NCBI GenBank assembly: GCA_947089145.1
Contig: CAMUJH010000025.1
Span: 1-60,643 of the forward strand
DNA from: an uncultured Hungatella sp.
GTDB taxonomy: Bacteria; Bacillota; Clostridia; Lachnospirales; Lachnospiraceae
Direction: 5' to 3'
DNA: 60,643 bases
The notes beneath the pieces were generated by a model. That model saw nothing but the letters and a program-made list of their open reading frames with translations. It was not told the origin of the DNA and searched no databases. Both the position numbers and the translations under genes were made by a program. Within the stretch, counting starts at the first letter, position 1; each line of letters starts with the position of its first letter. Positions 21,912-50,882 of this stretch are shown here, piece after piece.

Positions 21912-22691
21912 TTGTCTATCATTATTACAGTATCCAATCAGAAAGGCGGCGTGGGTAAAACCACCACATCGGCTGCCCTTATATCGGGTCTGGACCGGGA
22001 AGGGAAACGGGTTCTGGGCATTGATCTTGATCCTCAGGGCAACCTGGGGTTCTGTCTTGGAGCCGGCATGGCTAACCCACACACGGTTCTTGATGTCATG
22101 AAAGGCACTGTCCCGGTTCACAAGGCACTTGTCCGCTGTGACTACGGTGATCTGCTGGTTTCCGATATTACCCTGAGCAACAACGGTCTGGATGGCATCC
22201 GCAGCAACCGGGAGTTTATTTTGAGAGACGCCATAAAGCCTGTTATGGATTTTTTTGATTATATTATCATAGACACCCCGCCGGCCCTGAACCTTTTGAC
22301 GGTGAATGCCTATTCGGTTTCCGACTTTTTGATCATCCCCATGGCTTCTGACATTTTGAGCCTGGTGGGACTTGCCCAGCTAAAGGAAACAATTGAATCT
22401 GTCCGCGGTTCCTTTAACCCCGGGCTTAATGTCCTCGGCATTCTTCTGACCAGGTACAATCCCAGGACGCTGCTGTCCCGTGATGTTCTTGAGATGGCCC
22501 AGCAGCTTGCCGGACAGATTAAATCCCGGGTCTTTGACGCCAAAATCCGCACCGGAGTCGCCATCGCCGAGGCGCCGGCTCACGGCGAAAGCATTTTCTC
22601 TTACAATCCCCGCTCTGCAGCGGTAAAGGATTATCAGGCGCTTATTGATGAAATTGCTCCTGATATCCACTTAAAGGAGGTATCACAGTAA
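21912..22691 (+). CDS. ParA/Soj-family ATPase (orphan)
   Basis: 259 residues. Deviant Walker A KGGVGKTT with signature Lys (K11) and catalytic Lys (K16), Walker A' DLDPQGN, Walker B IIIDTPPALN. It is of Soj type (VSNQKGGVGKTT) and has no MinD/FlhG-type C-terminal membrane helix. No ParB follows; the partner is a ComFB-domain protein read from TAATG. Such orphan ParAs position cargo (chemoreceptor arrays, flagella, carboxysomes) by nucleoid gradients. The start is TTG with GGAGG 6-7 nt upstream. Cargo here is inferred to be part of the motility machinery. Confidence 0.85.
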   Translation: MSIIITVSNQKGGVGKTTTSAALISGLDREGKRVLGIDLDPQGNLGFCLGAGMANPHTVLDVMKGTVPVHKALVRCDYGDLLVSDITLSNNGLDGIRSNREFILRDAIKPVMDFFDYIIIDTPPALNLLTVNAYSVSDFLIIPMASDILSLVGLAQLKETIESVRGSFNPGLNVLGILLTRYNPRTLLSRDVLEMAQQLAGQIKSRVFDAKIRTGVAIAEAPAHGESIFSYNPRSAAVKDYQALIDEIAPDIHLKEVSQ

Positions 22692-23695
22692 TGTCCAAAA
22701 AAACCAACAAAACGTCCCATGTCATGGATCTTCTGACCAATGGCGCTTCCACAGAAGCTGACGCCTCAGTGAATGAGGCCGTATCCGGTCAGGAAAAGAA
22801 AGCTGCCGATGTCCAGTCCCACACAGTCTCTCCGGCGAAAGTCACCGTTGTGGACGAGGGAAGCCGCAATGACCGCCTTTCCCAGGAGATTTTAGGCAAA
22901 CTCACTGAAGAGTTAGAAGAGGAAACCCGGCGGGAACTGGGCGCCCATGAATCGGAAAGCAAAAAGCCGGAGGCTGCAGAGCAGACAGCGGTTAATCAGG
23001 CGCCTCAAGGGGAAGAAGCAGGCGGTCAGGAACTTGAGACGGTCTCTCCGGATCTGGAAAGCCAGAATGAGCAGACCCAGGAAGAAACTGATTCCCTGGC
23101 ATCTCAGGAGTTCCAGGCAGACACGCCCCTGGCAGATCCGGCTGAAGCGGTTCAGGAATCCATGCATGACGCTTTCCAGCCTTTAGAAGGCAGTATCCAG
23201 GATACGGTTCCGCAGCCATCCCCAGAGCCTTCTCAGGGCTCCTCAGATGTGTCTGCTGCCTCACAGCTCCAGGAAGAAGCCCCGCAAGCAGCTGCGGCGC
23301 CTGTGCCTGACAGTTCTCCTTCCCAGCCCCAGGAAAACGCTGCGGCGCCCGGGAAAGCCCCTGCCCCCCATCCCATTATTCCGGAATCTCAGCTTAACAG
23401 CCGTTTTCAGGATAAAGAGTACCGTTTTATCAATGTTATGGAACAGCTTCTCATGCGTCAGAATCTTGAGGCCGTATTAACGCAGTATGAGGTATGTACC
23501 TGCCCCCGCTGTATGTCCGACGTATGTGCTCTGGCATTAACCGGGCTTCCTTCTAAGTACGTGGTAACCAGCAGGGATTCCATCTCCCCCCTTATCAGCT
23601 ACTATGAAAATAAATATAAGATATCTGTTTTAACAGAACTTATGAAGGCATGTAACAAGGTGCGGCAAAATCCGCGGCATAAAGTAGAAAAATAA
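22691..23695 (+). CDS. ComFB-domain protein with long linker, putative ParA adaptor
   Basis: 334 residues. N-terminal basic peptide plus a short conserved-looking segment (MSKKTNKTSHVMDLLTNGA, 1-19), a helix about 57-85 (NDRLSQEILGKLTEELEEETRREL), a Glu/Gln/Ala/Pro/Ser-rich disordered linker (about 90-228), then a ComFB domain about 234-325: FINVMEQLLMRQNLEAVL, Cys269-x-Cys271-xx-Cys274-xxxx-Cys279, LALTGLPSKYVVTSRD. ComFB proteins have been reported as cyclic dinucleotide receptors. Overlaps parA (TAATG) with AAAGGAGG upstream, so co-translated. Basic N-termini commonly stimulate ParA ATPase in adaptors. Confidence 0.75.
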   Translation: MSKKTNKTSHVMDLLTNGASTEADASVNEAVSGQEKKAADVQSHTVSPAKVTVVDEGSRNDRLSQEILGKLTEELEEETRRELGAHESESKKPEAAEQTAVNQAPQGEEAGGQELETVSPDLESQNEQTQEETDSLASQEFQADTPLADPAEAVQESMHDAFQPLEGSIQDTVPQPSPEPSQGSSDVSAASQLQEEAPQAAAAPVPDSSPSQPQENAAAPGKAPAPHPIIPESQLNSRFQDKEYRFINVMEQLLMRQNLEAVLTQYEVCTCPRCMSDVCALALTGLPSKYVVTSRDSISPLISYYENKYKISVLTELMKACNKVRQNPRHKVEK

Positions 23696-23886: not shown

Positions 23887-24801
23887 TTACTGCCACATCT
23901 TAATTTCCTCTTCATCAAGAATCAGATCCACCTGTACCTGAATATTCTCATCCGTTACAGGCAGGTAACCGCTTACGGGGGTATTGCCTCGTTCCTGTCT
24001 TGCCCTGCTCATAAACAGTTCCCAAGTCTCTCTGTCTTCCTCGTCCTCATTCATATAGTATCTGGGGTAACCATCCTGATCCATTTTCATGGTAAAGCTC
24101 CAGACATTGTCAAACAAGGTGGTTCCTTTCCTTAACTGAAAAAGGTTCATATCTCCGCTGGGTTCTGTCATCTCCAGCCAGACTTCCTCCCCCTCCGGGT
24201 CCAGGTACAAAGTGCTTTTCATCCCCTGATCCGGCGTGTCAAACTCGGCTGCCAGCTGCAGCTTTTTATCTTCTGCATCCCATATGGCAACCTTTAAAAG
24301 ACTTTCCGGCTCCTGCTCTCCGCACATTACCACCAGATCCCGGTATCCGTCCCTGTTTAAGTCCGTAACAAGAAAAAATTGCTGTGTCTGAGTGGCCGAT
24401 GCATCTTTCTTCTTGCTTTTTTTCTTAGAGGTGCTTTTCAGTTCAGATCTTATGGCCTTCCGGTACTTGTCATACTCTTCCATTCCGGTTCCGTCCGGCC
24501 CTACGTAGCGGCCATCCTTGGCGAAAGTGTTAAAGGCCATGGCTCCGTCCGGCCCCATGTAATACTTCTTGCCGTCCTCTTTGTTTGTAACCCAGCCCGT
24601 CTTCATGTAGCCCTTGGAGTCCACATAGTACACCTTATCTTCGTCTTCGATCCACTCATCTTTTGCCGGATCATCAGGGCTGTACATATACATCCAATAC
24701 TTTCCATTATCAGACAGAGTCCAGTCGTCAGCGTAGGATGTCACAGTACCCGCCGCCGCAATCAAAAGTCCGCATAAAATGCCTGTCAGCTGTCTTTTCA
24801 T
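23887..24801 (-). CDS. Secreted protein with short wall-binding repeat region
   Basis: 304 residues. Signal peptide about 1-24 (MKRQLTGILCGLLIAAAGTVTSYADD). Residues about 25-100 have choline-binding-type repeats (KYWMYMYSPDD, KVYYVDSKGYMKTGWV, GKKYYMGPDGAM). A Lys-rich linker (SKKKSKKKDAS) leads to a beta-propeller/VCBS-like segment FFLVTDLNRDGYRDLVVM and an acidic C-terminal domain. ATG 24801 is 9 nt from AAAGGAG; ATG 24810 abuts the SD. Last gene of the fla/che strand; function unknown. Confidence 0.7.
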   Translation of the reverse strand: MKRQLTGILCGLLIAAAGTVTSYADDWTLSDNGKYWMYMYSPDDPAKDEWIEDEDKVYYVDSKGYMKTGWVTNKEDGKKYYMGPDGAMAFNTFAKDGRYVGPDGTGMEEYDKYRKAIRSELKSTSKKKSKKKDASATQTQQFFLVTDLNRDGYRDLVVMCGEQEPESLLKVAIWDAEDKKLQLAAEFDTPDQGMKSTLYLDPEGEEVWLEMTEPSGDMNLFQLRKGTTLFDNVWSFTMKMDQDGYPRYYMNEDEEDRETWELFMSRARQERGNTPVSGYLPVTDENIQVQVDLILDEEEIKMWQ

Positions 24802-24870
24802 AGTCCGCATCTCCTTTCCCTGGGATTTTGTTTCTTCAGGGAGCACTCCAGCCCTTTGGCAGAGTCAGCC

Positions 24871-25815
24871 TTACTGGGCCTTCCCGCTCTGCCTTGCCTG
24901 CTCAAACCTCTCCAGAAGCTTATCAATCACATGAACCAAATTGCCGATCTCCGGCTTGGTCAGCTGCTCGTCAGCCCCCAGCTGTTCACCTTTAATTCTC
25001 ATCTGGTCATCAATCAGAGATGAGAAAATAACCACCGGAAGATGCTTCAACCTCGGATCATCTTTTACCAGTTTCGTGAGACGGTGTCCGTCCATCTCCG
25101 GCATCTCGATATCCGTCACAATAAGGTTAACCTTATCAAACAAATCAGAGTCGTGGCGAATCGAATCCAGATAATTCCAGGCTTCCTGGCCATTGTTGAA
25201 ATTGGTAATATTGGTAAAGCCTGCCGTCTGCAAAGAATCATCAATCATCTTCTGCAGAAGAATGGAGTCCTCAGCAATAACAATCGGGCTGTCGCACAGT
25301 GTCCTGTCGCCCATCTGCTCCACCTCGGATATCTGGATAGAGGTTTCCGGCGCAATCTCCGCCACAATGGCCTCAAAATCAAGGATGGTAACCAATTCCC
25401 CGGCACACTGGGCAATGCCTGTAGCCACGCCCTCTTCCCCGCGGCTTAAAGTCTTATCCGGCTTCTGGATATCCTTCCAGGAGATGCGGCTGATTCCCTC
25501 AATGCTCTGAACACGGAAGGCTACTGTCATCTTGTTAAAGTTTGTCACAATAAACAGATCCCTGGTCTGGTGTTCCAGATATTCGTTGGTCAGATAATAG
25601 CCCAGATCAATAACCGTGATCAGAAGATCCCTGGGTTTAAAAATGCCTTCTACTGCCGGATGGGCATGAGGCATGGCCTTTACCTTGGCAGCCATCATGA
25701 TCTCTTTTACCTTAGCAACATTGATTCCGTAGAATTCCCCCTGAATGGTAAACTTCATAATCTCAATCTCATTGGTACCTGATTCCAGAAGGATTCCCTC
25801 TTTTTCTTTCACCAC
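24871..25815 (-). CDS. cheV: Chemotaxis coupling/adaptation protein CheV
   Basis: 314 residues: CheW-like domain (about 10-165; KFTIQGEFYGINVAKVKEIM) and C-terminal receiver (about 175-300) with E182/D183, phospho-acceptor D235 in VTDIEMPEMDG and Lys in LTKPE. Couples receptors to CheA and adapts on phosphorylation. GTG start 25815 with GAGGAG 9 nt upstream. cheA, cheW, cheB and cheR are not in this window, so they lie elsewhere. Confidence 0.93.
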   Translation of the reverse strand: MVKEKEGILLESGTNEIEIMKFTIQGEFYGINVAKVKEIMMAAKVKAMPHAHPAVEGIFKPRDLLITVIDLGYYLTNEYLEHQTRDLFIVTNFNKMTVAFRVQSIEGISRISWKDIQKPDKTLSRGEEGVATGIAQCAGELVTILDFEAIVAEIAPETSIQISEVEQMGDRTLCDSPIVIAEDSILLQKMIDDSLQTAGFTNITNFNNGQEAWNYLDSIRHDSDLFDKVNLIVTDIEMPEMDGHRLTKLVKDDPRLKHLPVVIFSSLIDDQMRIKGEQLGADEQLTKPEIGNLVHVIDKLLERFEQARQSGKAQ

Positions 25816-34898: not shown

Positions 34899-36419
34899 CT
34901 ACAGACTTTCCGGGTTTAATTCCCTTGTAACGATCTCTGTAATACGGATGCCGAAGTTATCCTCCACCACAACAATGTCGCCTTTTGCGATACACTGCCC
35001 ATTGACAAACAGATCCACCTGCTCGCCGGCCATCTTGTCAAGAACTACCAGCGTACCCTGGGTAAATTCCAGAATATCACGCACCAGCCTTTTCGTCCTT
35101 CCGATTTCCACTGAGATCTCAAGAGGCACCTTCATCAGCATCTCCTGATTGGTCTTATCTTCCTCTCCGTCACCTGACTCGTCTTTAATAGGCGATGACT
35201 TTAAAGGCTTGATAATCGAACCGCCTCCTGATGGCTGGTTCTGGGAAGGCGCAGGCTCTGCCGGCTTTGCGGAGACAGATTTCATCATTTCCATCATCTG
35301 GAGCTGAGTCTGCTGCATTTGGGTGAAAAGCTGCATAACCATAGGGTCCATCCCCATGGAAGGGTACGGAGCCCCATAATAAGGCGGCTGTCCTGCCTGC
35401 ATCTGAGGCTGAGGCATAGGTGCCGGTGCTGGGGCCGCCGGGGTTGGGGCCGGGGCTGATGCTCCTGAAAGCATGGCATTGATCTCGTCCTGGGACATGG
35501 TGCCTCCCGATGAAGGCGCTGGGGCTGGGGCCGCTGCCGGGGCTGATGCTCCCGCAAGCATAGCATTGATCTCGTCCTGGGACATGGTGCCTCCCGATGA
35601 AGGCGCTGGGGCTGGGGCCGCTGCCGGGGCTGATGCTCCCGCAAGCATAGCATTGATCTCGTCCTGGGACATGGTGCCTCCCGATGACGAAGGAGCCTCC
35701 GCTGCCGGAGCCGGGGGAATTCCCGGAAGTCCTGCAAGCATGGCATTGATCTCATCCTGAGATATGGTGCCGTTGTCAGCCGGAGCTGGGGCCGGAGCCG
35801 GTTCAGAAACTGCGCCTGCCGCCGCAAAGCTTTCTTCAAAGGGCTCTAAAAGACGTTTAGCAAGTTTAATGGACATGATATTCATAAACTCGCTGTTCAT
35901 CTTATCCGCAATCTCCAGGCGGAAACGAACCACCACCATGCCGTCCTTTTCCGGAAAATATTTAACTTTAAAATCCTCTGGATCTCCGATGTCAAAAGAC
36001 TTTGGAGTGGAAATATTAACAATGGTGCCTAAAAACTCAGACAACGCCGTGGCTGATGACCCCATCATCTGATTCATGACTTCGCAGATGGCGCTGATAT
36101 GGATCTCATCCATCTCAAAATCCGTATTCATCGGATCTTCGCCAAGCAATGTGCCTACGATCACCCCTACGTCTTCACGGCGGAACATCATGATATTTTT
36201 GCCGTCCAGACCTTCTACATATGCGATCTCAACACCAATTGCCGGCTCCATGCGCCTGAATTCAAATTCGTCCCGGGTCAGAACGGAAACCACCGGCGTG
36301 GTGATATTCACCAAGGTACCAAGCATTGTGGAAACTGCTGTCGCTGAGGCGCCGAGACTTATATTCATTATTTCGCCTATGGCGTCCAGTTCCATTTCGT
36401 TAAAGCTGCTAGCGCCCAT
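34899..36419 (-). CDS. fliY: Flagellar switch protein FliY (CheC-FliN fusion) with four CheY-binding-type motifs
   Basis: 506 residues. CheC-like phosphatase domain (about 5-195) with both E-x-x-N sites present (E16/N19, E113/N116). A 230-residue linker follows, rich in Ala/Pro, with four copies of SQDEINAML (220-228, 251-259, 280-288, 309-317), matching the FliM/FliY N-terminal CheY-P-binding consensus SQxEIDALL. Then a Met/Gln-rich stretch and the FliN domain (about 430-506; VPLEISVEIGRTKRLVRDIL, GEQVDLFVNGQCIAKGDIVVVEDNFGIRI). In B. subtilis a single motif sits at the N-terminus; here the N-terminus starts at the CheC domain. C-ring component and CheY-P phosphatase. Confidence 0.95.
   Translation of the reverse strand: MGASSFNEMELDAIGEIMNISLGASATAVSTMLGTLVNITTPVVSVLTRDEFEFRRMEPAIGVEIAYVEGLDGKNIMMFRREDVGVIVGTLLGEDPMNTDFEMDEIHISAICEVMNQMMGSSATALSEFLGTIVNISTPKSFDIGDPEDFKVKYFPEKDGMVVVRFRLEIADKMNSEFMNIMSIKLAKRLLEPFEESFAAAGAVSEPAPAPAPADNGTISQDEINAMLAGLPGIPPAPAAEAPSSSGGTMSQDEINAMLAGASAPAAAPAPAPSSGGTMSQDEINAMLAGASAPAAAPAPAPSSGGTMSQDEINAMLSGASAPAPTPAAPAPAPMPQPQMQAGQPPYYGAPYPSMGMDPMVMQLFTQMQQTQLQMMEMMKSVSAKPAEPAPSQNQPSGGGSIIKPLKSSPIKDESGDGEEDKTNQEMLMKVPLEISVEIGRTKRLVRDILEFTQGTLVVLDKMAGEQVDLFVNGQCIAKGDIVVVEDNFGIRITEIVTRELNPESL
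35476..35780 (-). repeat. In-frame tandem repeat inside fliY (87-bp units)
   Basis: Motif copies begin at 35476, 35563, 35650 and 35743, with periods 87, 87 and 93 bp. The units 35476-35562 and 35563-35649 are identical base for base, and identity continues 38 bp into the third. Each unit encodes 29 residues, one CheY-binding-type motif plus Ala/Pro linker. The perfection at silent positions shows recent duplication. Confidence 0.95.
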
Positions 36420-36461: not shown

Positions 36462-36911
36462 TTATTTGCCAATATCCAGTGCCTTCTGCGCCATCAGCTT
36501 CATTGCGTTCAAAGCCGTAACGTTTGCTTCATAAGACCTGGTGGCAGACATACTGTCAACTGTCTCTTTCAGCAAATCCACATTGGGCAAAGTCACAAAA
36601 CCATTTTCATCCGCATCGGGGTGATTTGGATTATACACCTGCTTCATTTCTCTGTCGTCCTCGACAATATTAGCCACGCGGACTCCCGCCGGGCTGCTGG
36701 TAAAGCCTTTTCCCCTTAAAGCATTTCGCATTGCCTCCCGGAATGAGTCTCCGCCGTAGCTTTCAAAAACCACGTCTTTCCTGCGGTAAGCCCCGCCGCC
36801 TTCTGTTCTGGTAGTGTCGATATTGGCAATATTTTCGGCGGCAATATCCATTCTCATGCGCTGGGCGCTCATACCGGATGCACTGATGTCAAACGAACTT
36901 AAAAAGGCCAT
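36462..36911 (-). CDS. flgC: Basal-body rod protein FlgC
   Basis: 149 residues: SSFDISASGMSAQRMRMDIAAENIANIDTTRTEGGGAYRRK and NVDLLKETVDSMSATRSYEANVTALNAMKLM are FlgC signatures. Proximal rod. It is out of its usual place: flgB is followed directly by fliE at the operon start, and flgC sits between cheY and fliY instead. Confidence 0.94.
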   Translation of the reverse strand: MAFLSSFDISASGMSAQRMRMDIAAENIANIDTTRTEGGGAYRRKDVVFESYGGDSFREAMRNALRGKGFTSSPAGVRVANIVEDDREMKQVYNPNHPDADENGFVTLPNVDLLKETVDSMSATRSYEANVTALNAMKLMAQKALDIGK

Positions 36912-36936: not shown

Positions 36937-37299
36937 CTAGTTTCCTAAAATTGTATTTACGGTCTGAACAATACGGTCAGCGTTAAAAGGTTTTACAATA
37001 AAATCCCTTGCGCCGGATTTAATGGCATCAACCACCATTCCCTCCTGACCCATGGCAGTACACATAACGATCTTTGCATCAGGATGAGCCTCTCTGATTT
37101 TCTTAAGGGCCTGAAGACCGTCCATGTTGGGCATGGTAATATCCATAATGACCATGTCAGGGCTTTCTTCTTCATATTTCTTTACAGCCTCTGCTCCGTC
37201 CTGTGCCTCTACAAAGTTATCATAACCGCTTTTTGTCAAAGCATTCTTAACCATCATCCTCATAAACGCGGCATCATCAACCAACATAATTTTAGCCAT
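36937..37299 (-). CDS. cheY: Chemotaxis response regulator CheY
   Basis: 120-residue single receiver: D8/D9, phospho-acceptor D53 (MDITMPNMDG), T81, K103. CheY-P binds the EIDALL-type motifs of FliM and FliY to control rotation. Embedded between fliM and flgC-fliY, unlike Bacillus where fliY precedes cheY. Confidence 0.95.
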   Translation of the reverse strand: MAKIMLVDDAAFMRMMVKNALTKSGYDNFVEAQDGAEAVKKYEEESPDMVIMDITMPNMDGLQALKKIREAHPDAKIVMCTAMGQEGMVVDAIKSGARDFIVKPFNADRIVQTVNTILGN

Positions 37300-37370: not shown

Positions 37371-38456
37371 TCATACCTCTGCAGTTCCTGCCTGGGACAG
37401 GTTCTCTTCGGACAAAGCTTCCTCCTCTTCCTCTTCCGGGTAAAGGCGTCTGTTTATCCGGACAGCCACATTCTTTTTGTACACACCCATCTTGCCCATA
37501 AACCATGGCTGCTTCTCTATATACAGCTTTACTTCTTTATCTTTGCCCTTGCTCATGTCAATGACATCCCCTACCTTCAGATGGTAGATATCGCTTAGGT
37601 CAAGGAATACCGTGCCAAGCTGGCCTGTAATAGAAAGCTGTGACTGACGGATGTTATCAAGGATCGTTTCTTTATTGTCCTCAAATGCATATCCTCTTGC
37701 TATATGCTTGCGGCTGTCAATTACCTGGAATATATTCTCAAGCAGTGTTCCCGGCAGGCATATCTTGATCCGTTCCACTGCGAGACCCGTCACATCCACG
37801 TTCAGATGGACGATTACAACTGTCTCATCAAGGCCAACGTCCTGGATCATGCTGGGATTGTCTTCCATCCTCTGAGCCTTGAAGTCTATATTAATATAAT
37901 TGGAGAATCCATCTTTTAGTGCCTGAATCAGGTATGACAGTACTCTGCGGTACAGTGCGATTTCCACATCTGAATACCGGTACCCGTCTTTTACCTTCAC
38001 CACCTCTTCCCCGCCGCCCAGCATCCTCTCAATAAGCGTAATCACCATGCCGGGAGTCACATACATCATAAGGGGAACCAGGTTTTTGGTGTTGTCAGGA
38101 ATAATGGCTTCCACCAAAGTAACCATATCATTTTCATTAAGAGAGTTTACATACTCATAGTAACGCCGCTCCTGAACTTCCATCACCGTAATGTCAGTCA
38201 TAACCCGGAATACGCCGTTGACCTGAGATGTAATGATCCGCGCATAATTTTCAAATACGCTTGAGAGGATCTTCATCTTATCTTTTGTAAACTTCCTGGG
38301 GCTGTAAAAGTCATACTTGCTGTACTTAACCTGCTCTGTCTCTGCTTTCTTCTCCTCCACAGGGCTGCTGCTTGTGCTGGCTGCCGGTTCTGAAGAAGGA
38401 TTCTGCATGGACTTTAAAAGCGCGTCTATCTGACTTTGGGATAATACGTCTGCCAT
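37371..38456 (-). CDS. fliM: Flagellar motor switch protein FliM
   Basis: 361 residues. N-terminal CheY-P-binding motif LSQSQIDALL (5-14), disordered linker, CheC-like middle domain (YSKYDFYSPRKFTKDKMKIL, YYEYVNSLNENDMVTLV), C-terminal FliN-like SpoA domain (VFLDLSDIYHLKVGDVIDM). C-ring scaffold. No fliL precedes it. Confidence 0.95.
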   Translation of the reverse strand: MADVLSQSQIDALLKSMQNPSSEPAASTSSSPVEEKKAETEQVKYSKYDFYSPRKFTKDKMKILSSVFENYARIITSQVNGVFRVMTDITVMEVQERRYYEYVNSLNENDMVTLVEAIIPDNTKNLVPLMMYVTPGMVITLIERMLGGGEEVVKVKDGYRYSDVEIALYRRVLSYLIQALKDGFSNYINIDFKAQRMEDNPSMIQDVGLDETVVIVHLNVDVTGLAVERIKICLPGTLLENIFQVIDSRKHIARGYAFEDNKETILDNIRQSQLSITGQLGTVFLDLSDIYHLKVGDVIDMSKGKDKEVKLYIEKQPWFMGKMGVYKKNVAVRINRRLYPEEEEEEALSEENLSQAGTAEV

Positions 38457-50086: not shown

Positions 50087-50410
50087 TTAAACATTCATCT
50101 TGATCAGTTCATTATAAGATTCCAATGTTTTGTTGCGCAATGTTATGAGCACATCAAGACTAAGGCTGGCTTTCGCCTCCGCAATGGGCAGGGTGTGAGC
50201 GTCATTAAGCTGGCCCGTGCTTAACAGGTACTGCTTATACTCCACATCCGCCTGGGTTTCCTTCACCTGATTGACGGCATTTTTGAAGACATCTTTAAAT
50301 AAAGAAGCCTCCGCATTCAGCGAGGGCATGGTCTGAGTCTCCTCCAGCCCTCCTCCAATCCCGCCTATGTTCCAAAGCTGCATAGGCGTTATAAATGATA
50401 CTCCCTCCAT
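50087..50410 (-). CDS. fliE: Hook-basal body protein FliE
   Basis: 107 residues: FKDVFKNAVNQVKETQADVEYKQYLLSTGQLNDAHTLPIAEAKASLSLDVLITLRNKTLESYNELIKM is FliE throughout. Joins the MS ring to the rod. Follows flgB directly, 76 bp apart, with no flgC between. Confidence 0.94.
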   Translation of the reverse strand: MEGVSFITPMQLWNIGGIGGGLEETQTMPSLNAEASLFKDVFKNAVNQVKETQADVEYKQYLLSTGQLNDAHTLPIAEAKASLSLDVLITLRNKTLESYNELIKMNV

Positions 50411-50486
50411 GATTTTCTTCTCCCCATCCTGTTATCTCAGTTTTTACGTCCTGTCATCTGTAAATCCAGCTTCCTAAAACCAAACG

Positions 50487-50882
50487 TCAGAAGCTCCGGG
50501 CCGCATTCTTGAGCCGGGTTATATCGTTATTCAAGGAGTTCAGCATATATTGATATTCATAAGCAGACCTGACAATCTCCACCTGCTCCTGATCCATATC
50601 CACATTGTTGCCGTCCAGCCTGCTGGACTCATCCCATGTGGTGTTCAGCCATGACCGTGAATCTCCGATGGCTTCATACACCGTATGTCTGGGAGAACGT
50701 TTGGTCTTGTTAGCCTCTGAAATTCTTTTTCCAAGTTCCTCTTCAAATGTTATGTACTGGGATTTAAACCCTGGCGTATCAACATTGGCCACGTTATTCA
50801 GGGATACTGTCTGTCTCTGCCACAAGAAATCAAGCACTTTCTCTGTCAGCGCAACTCCGTTGCCGTACATCTCGGACATCAT
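50487..50882 (-). CDS. flgB: Basal-body rod protein FlgB
   Basis: 131 residues: LTEKVLDFLWQRQTVSLNNVANVDTPGFKSQY and NNVDMDQEQVEIVRSAYEYQYMLNSLNNDI. First gene of the long fla operon. GGAGAGAAGGT precedes ATG 50882; ATG 50879 follows at once. Confidence 0.95.
   Translation of the reverse strand: MMSEMYGNGVALTEKVLDFLWQRQTVSLNNVANVDTPGFKSQYITFEEELGKRISEANKTKRSPRHTVYEAIGDSRSWLNTTWDESSRLDGNNVDMDQEQVEIVRSAYEYQYMLNSLNNDITRLKNAARSF

Follow-up and report, generated by a model that had tools for sequence, protein, structure and literature searches.

The window, by which we mean the whole stretch of 60,643 nucleotides that was analysed, belongs to a Hungatella-like Lachnospiraceae draft genome of 4.46 Mb with 87% completeness; among named relatives, an uncultured Hungatella MAG is the closest. 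From upstream to downstream, the window presents fliM, cheY, flgC, fliY, fliO and an ORF that, by its position and sequence, is read as a putative fliP. The fliY ORF starts with ATG, and its product reaches 307.6 bits against the NCBIfam model of the flagellar motor switch phosphatase FliY (NF005995; curated cut-off, 218); Pfam recognizes CheC (PF04509) in two stretches, followed by FliMN_C (PF01052). The protein is thus laid out as a CheC-like part, a long Ala/Pro-rich linker and a FliN domain. The relevant features are as follows.

37371..38456, minus strand: fliM (ORF, Pfam and NCBIfam)
38415..38444, minus strand: the one docking motif of FliM, LSQSQIDALL, at its N terminus (FliM-derived motif matrix)
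36937..37299, minus strand: cheY, encoding one receiver domain and most similar, among solved structures, to Thermotoga CheY (domain and structure-profile comparison)
34899..36419, minus strand: fliY, encoding a flagellar motor switch phosphatase of 506 aa that bears the linker motif array (ORF, Pfam and NCBIfam)
35820..36419, minus strand: CheC-like phosphatase part, residues 1-200 (Pfam CheC; high-confidence fold in the model)
36363..36374, minus strand: first ExxN phosphatase site, EIMN, residues 16-19 (sequence)
36072..36083, minus strand: second ExxN phosphatase site, EVMN, residues 113-116 (sequence)
35736..35765, minus strand: linker motif 1, ISQDEINAML, residues 219-228 (model helix 221-229)
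35643..35672, minus strand: linker motif 2, MSQDEINAML, residues 250-259 (model helix 252-259)
35556..35585, minus strand: linker motif 3, MSQDEINAML, residues 279-288 (model helix 281-288)
35469..35498, minus strand: linker motif 4, MSQDEINAML, residues 308-317 (model helix 311-314 only)
35449..35687, minus strand: 87-bp tandem DNA repeat under motifs 2-4 (2.7 copies, 98% matches)
35274..35348, minus strand: Met/Gln-rich linker segment, residues 358-382 (predicted helix 359-382)
34929..35141, minus strand: FliN (FliMN_C) domain, residues 427-497, expected ring anchor (Pfam)
24871-25815: CheV-like gene with a CheW and a receiver domain, in the flagellar cluster

As regards the neighboring genes, flgC (36462-36911, minus strand) sits between cheY and fliY, and flgB and fliE adjoin each other without flgC (50087-50882, minus strand). 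An ORF with choline-binding repeats (23887-24846, minus strand) stands beside the CheV-like gene.

The linker motifs of the window FliY

A first-pass annotation of the sequence had placed four copies of SQDEINAML in the FliY linker, and we confirmed their presence between the CheC and FliN domains, with the serine at residues 220, 251, 280 and 309, together with both phosphatase sites that it had described as intact. As it had also reported, the N terminus (MGASSFNEMELDAIGEIMN...) carries no EIDAL-type motif. The N-terminal motif of Thermotoga FliY is not known to be required for CheY-P binding or phosphatase activity. By profile comparison, the CheC-like part of the window FliY matches Thermotoga maritima FliY (4hyn) with an E value of 9.7e-47 and also matches T. 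maritima CheC (1xkr, 2f9z).

The likeness of SQDEINAML to the docking motif of FliM and FliY, also claimed at first pass, holds on a matrix derived from FliM N termini only (28 distinct decamers from 138 FliM proteins), on which each linker copy in the window scores 15.1 bits and the window FliM scores 33.1 bits. The pattern L-S-Q-x-x-I-D-x-L-L, present in the window FliM, is common to the linker copies; however, the FliM motif is strict, with D always in position 7 and L always in position 9 in the 138 FliM proteins, whereas linker copies are looser, with mostly E, D, N or Q in position 7 and L or M in position 9. The five sites per FliM-FliY pair that had been counted stand as a number of motifs (one plus four) and not as proven binding sites.

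Matches of at least 8 bits amounted to 201 in the linkers of 259 FliY proteins, a few of which fall on Met-rich segments instead of motifs; shuffling of the linkers left 0.35 matches on average, and the pattern found four times in the window linker occurred in none of 20,000 shuffles of the same linker. A chance origin of the linker motifs is excluded. In the 4.46-Mb draft, the back-translated motif was found at the four FliY sites, at the FliM N terminus and in two unrelated places, and a reversed control pattern gave two matches. Furthermore, in 2212 ORF segments from 79 named loci of relatives, 233 matches of at least 12 bits were distributed among FliY (150), FliM (77), truncated FliY proteins (4) and other places (2), the motif being nearly confined to FliM and FliY in these loci.

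FliY by itself was modeled with AlphaFold2 from 50 sequences (mean pLDDT, 69; pTM, 0.51). Confidence is high for the fold of the CheC-like part, below a pLDDT of 50 over most of the linker and poor for the FliN part; of the helices predicted in the linker, as given above, four coincide with the motifs, the fourth being short, and a longer one with the Met-rich segment. Such a form is what would be expected of tethered docking helices, and it is silent on the partner.

One of two reported partners of this class of motif, the other being FlhG, is CheY, both for FliM and for Bacillus subtilis FliY (PMC6946799, PMC8809382, PMC7355467). B. subtilis FliY, described as a CheY phosphatase at the switch (PMC340952) and as provided with a CheY-binding motif (PMC8809382), shares the CheC-like and FliN domains with the window FliY. 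However, it has one motif, at its N-terminal end, whereas all four motifs of the window FliY are in the linker, which makes the latter a FliY of different layout, not of the B. subtilis type. Thermotoga FliY has been reported, in a review, to show no preference for activated CheY (PMC7355467). Full or degenerate EIDAL motifs occur sporadically in FliN and FliY, according to a paper whose accessible part mentions neither tandem linker copies nor relocation (PMC6946799). The motif class, the phosphatase role of FliY and the N-terminal motif of B. subtilis FliY are already established. Tandem linker motifs, their relocation and a link to FlhF/FlhG were found described nowhere in a literature search that had most subscription papers, two main ones on FliY included, beyond its reach, and a full-text search for EIDALL returned unrelated work only.

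Motif position across related FliY proteins

FliY sequences were gathered from the genus (10 of 26 genomes matched), from the named loci, from the family and from the class. The named set consists of the best 79 loci of 507 relatives, retrieved via six peptide patterns, and favors linker types because one of these patterns contains the motif. The family and the class were searched irrespective of the motif, with matches in 162 of 299 and 86 of 196 genomes, respectively; the top 30 and 60 more were taken from the former (29 picked for a missing N-terminal part or an unusual match), and the top 30 and 40 regions from the latter. After the removal of 17 duplicates and 14 sequences without the first-site pattern from 276 two-domain loci, 245 distinct FliY proteins were scored, and since the sampling was partial and selected, the resulting counts (142 with the motif at the N terminus only, 83 in the linker only, 20 in neither and 0 in both) are no natural frequencies. 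Hand correction, by which the linker call of L151 and one copy in L053 turned out to be Met-rich segments and L267 and L225 to be N-terminal types (L225 is truncated by the end of its contig, which leaves the motif partly visible), brought these figures to 144, 82, 19 and 0. Among the 82 corrected linker types, 18 have one copy, 27 two, 23 three and 14 four. The 14 set-aside proteins comprise nine with an N-terminal motif (weak in L274), one with a degenerate motif (L261) and four without any; the linker motif is absent from all 14. A Met/Gln-rich segment, searched with a loose pattern, was observed in 67 of 83 linker types, 11 of 20 motif-less proteins and 19 of 142 N-terminal types.

In a tree built by a quick method on the CheC-like and FliN parts, with the linker left out, a branch with an SH-aLRT value of 99 separates all 83 linker types and 14 motif-less proteins from all 142 N-terminal types and six others, the labels being those of the uncorrected scoring; long branches were flagged in this tree, which leaves the position of the motif-less f49 rows unsure. 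The survey of motif number and position recommended at first pass thus reveals that, across a whole clade, the linker motif replaces the N-terminal one. Conversely, a lack of conservation with no copy retained, regarded at first pass as evidence against its reading, was found, after hand correction, in 15 of the 97 linker-clade rows and not in the other 82, which keep one to four copies. Linker-clade proteins without a recognizable copy include L038, L050, L051 and L093, and the distinction between having and lacking the array requires 12 changes on the tree (uncorrected scoring).

Motif-bearing linkers occur across genera and families, and G458, an order-mate outside the family, has an array of at least three copies distributed over two contigs. 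An assembly artefact was rejected, as the array recurs in many assemblies; in G003, G025 and G458, a contig ends within the array or next to it, so that copy numbers in drafts may be underestimates. Altered motifs with P for Q were noticed in the linkers of L034 (three tandem copies of LTPDEIAAMV) and L040 (one LSPEEIAALV), which could possibly represent a drifting or retargeted docking site.

The linker has a median length of 197 residues in linker types, compared to 81 in N-terminal types. The N-terminal motif lies a median of 30 residues from the first ExxN site, and the first linker motif a median of 32 residues from the end of the CheC domain, so that the two tethers are of similar length; a median of 106 residues separates the last motif from FliN. 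Both ExxN sites are present in all 245 proteins, the first site being itself a selection criterion. The simplest reading of these observations would be that a hook for CheY, tethered at a short distance from the phosphatase domain, is maintained by selection, whether it precedes or follows that domain.

Selection on the array and its proposed function

Between successive copies within 64 genes, pN/pS was 0.124 in the motifs, 0.58 upstream and 0.51 downstream, with similar pS, in a comparison where the picking of copies by motif score favors a low pN in the motifs. For this reason, the test was repeated on orthologues, with positions set by one reference, and the motif again scored lower than the spacer in the genus (0.125 vs 0.370), in a Lacrimispora group (0.094 vs 0.481) and in a Lachnotalea-like group (0.186 vs 0.470); the CheC domain ranged from 0.082 to 0.096 in the three groups. 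The linker motifs are under purifying selection, and the spacers drift. Moreover, position 7, which is variable, is identical among the copies of one gene in 60 of 64 genes, as expected if all copies face one partner.

We propose, with a probability of about 0.6, that FliY in this clade would act as a C-ring phosphatase in which the motif for CheY docking moved from the N terminus to the tether and multiplied there, so as to hold CheY-P for hydrolysis. Each linker copy would bind the alpha4-beta5-alpha5 face of CheY, probably of CheY-P, like the FliM N terminus; with FliY anchored on the ring by its FliN domain, the array would keep several CheY-P molecules in reach of the two CheC active sites, there to be hydrolysed. 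The strict motif of FliM would remain the switch input, and the linker copies, in which E, N or Q may stand in the place of D and M in that of L, would presumably be weaker one by one and act by number, so that copy number could set the amount of CheY-P held and removed at the motor. The first-pass idea that one subunit could hold several CheY-P while hydrolysing it is partly supported by the motif match, the purifying selection, the predicted helices and the closeness of the array to the CheC domain, and the cooperative or fast-adapting switching that it suggested would be a further possibility. Against the proposal speak the reported indifference of Thermotoga FliY to the activation of CheY and the apparent dispensability of its N-terminal motif, the shortness of the predicted helix at motif 4, and the linker-clade proteins that retain no copy. 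The series of one to four copies beside a phosphatase would make a role of valency in the capture or removal of CheY-P at the motor measurable.

A rather unlikely alternative is that the motifs bind CheY-P mainly for switching, which would become more sensitive or more cooperative as extra sites bring CheY-P to the ring, while hydrolysis would hardly be affected. This would agree with the motif class being the switch input of FliM, and with the FliN side of FliY belonging to the base of the ring. Indeed, FliM keeps its own motif in 77 of the 77 FliM proteins with a start inside the named loci, including those beside motif-less FliY proteins. On the other hand, the linker motifs are looser than that of FliM, and they lie nearest to the phosphatase domain, at the median distances given above. 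FliM beside a linker-type FliY mostly reads LSQSQIDALL, and beside an N-terminal type mostly LSQ[NSD]EIDxLL, and these differing sequences indicate that each kind of FliY has its own FliM variant.

It appears still less probable that the motifs dock another partner or C-ring surface (FliM, the CheC-like domain, CheV or another receiver protein), with a role in assembly or autoinhibition. CheY is a candidate on the basis of sequence, the window encodes the CheV-like receiver protein listed above, and the array is adjoined by the helix predicted for the Met-rich segment, all of which would leave room for such a partner; against it, the motifs match the CheY-binding motif of FliM, and 76 of the 79 named loci have a cheY close to fliY. 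The CheY of the window is nearest to Thermotoga CheY, including the chain of PDB 4iga, an entry that presumably contains a FliM peptide.

It is very improbable, finally, that the array is a functionless, neutral expansion of a GC-rich repeat: the near-identical 87-bp tandem units and a copy number that varies from 0 to 4 with repeated losses would suit such an origin, but it was rejected because the motif codons are constrained and the intervening spacers drift at similar synonymous change, and motif-bearing linkers are spread over genera and families.

Returning to the proposed trapping of CheY-P, the window genome has one CheA. CheA was not found in 4 of 24 genomes searched (G186, G040, G172 and G173), the FliY proteins of which are motif-less. 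A simple rule is contradicted by the FliM of G186, which retains its motif, and by G071, which has a CheA match above the cut-off (31.1 bits) and a FliY without motif. Six further motif-less genomes of the linker clade keep CheA (G307, G143, G110, G063, G138 and G102). Since motif-less relatives keep CheA, the array is not essential for chemotaxis, and it looks like a dispensable tuning device. The FliY-like proteins of G040, G071, G172 and G173 (L166-L169 and L308-L311) are divergent Lachnospiraceae proteins devoid of the motif, and the second FliMN_C protein of these genomes is motif-less as well, that of G071 starting near LDQEALTELL (4.3 bits); the proteins taken as FliM in these four genomes match FliMN_C only and not the Pfam FliM domain, and are therefore no firm control.

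FlhF, FlhG and a proposed history of the motif

FlhG has been reported to bind FliM via the FliM N terminus in monotrichous species and to bind FliY in B. subtilis (PMC12826062), from which we infer that it uses the N-terminal motif of B. subtilis FliY. While B. subtilis has FlhG as a partner of FliY, neither FlhG nor its own partner FlhF was found in the window genome, a draft that is 87% complete: no FlhF exceeded the cut-off, and the best FlhG match, of 88.6 bits, is at the level of MinD.

Several genomes in the FlhF/FlhG comparison are incomplete drafts. In a first set, 38 genomes with the N-terminal motif were searched for FlhF, and 37 exceeded the curated cut-off, the 38th having a partial match (170.5 vs 174.15 bits); the 31 genomes that belong to the linker clade, 28 in number, or to the basal motif-less group gave no FlhF above it. 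In a second set, from which G291, counted before, and G192, in which FliY was not found, were omitted, FlhF is present in all but one (G403) of 16 genomes that have the N-terminal motif, and in 3 of 11 without it (G126, G357 and G067). With the partial match counted, FlhF accompanies the N-terminal motif in 53 of 54 genomes, compared to 3 of 43 genomes lacking that motif. As for FlhG, scores from 210 to 347 bits were obtained in 37 of 37 genomes with the N-terminal motif; in 32 other genomes, the best match reached 96 bits, again the MinD level, and FlhG was not found in any of 29 linker-clade genomes. Where neither FlhF nor FlhG was found, the motif of FliM is retained, and that of FliY is confined to the linker, if there is one at all.

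On the tree, this association corresponds to two changes of FlhF and four of the motif (independent-pairs sign test, which took in two genomes without an FlhF search, p 0.5), and with so few changes it is not established over independent events.

Docking of FlhG, a MinD-like ATPase, during C-ring assembly would be suggested by its reported interactions with the FliM N terminus and with B. subtilis FliY (PMC12826062), but FlhG as partner of the linker motifs is largely excluded and close to refuted by the failure to find it in 29 of 29 linker-clade genomes, or FlhF in 28 of 28 and in the window genome. The linker motifs persist and multiply where FlhG is not found, and hence they hardly serve FlhG, CheY being the best candidate for their partner.

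It is possible to hypothesize that the use of the FliY N terminus by FlhG in assembly once pinned the motif there and that, without FlhF and FlhG, only CheY docking would have remained, leaving the motif free to move and multiply. We advance only tentatively, as a proposal that could well prove wrong, that the N-terminal EIDAL is a dual-use site held in place by FlhG, the release of which gave rise to a trap-and-hydrolyse array whose valency, from 0 to 4, would act as a dial for the lifetime of the signal at the motor. The clade offers a natural experiment that separates the two proposed uses of the motif, assembly via FlhG and signaling via CheY. A second, separate case is represented by G331 and G363, which lie inside the N-terminal clade and have neither the N-terminal motif nor FlhF.

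In the window, a ParA/MinD-like ATPase gene that is absent among the FlhG matches listed lies beside fliD, and the gene after it encodes a ComFB domain (21912-23695, plus strand).
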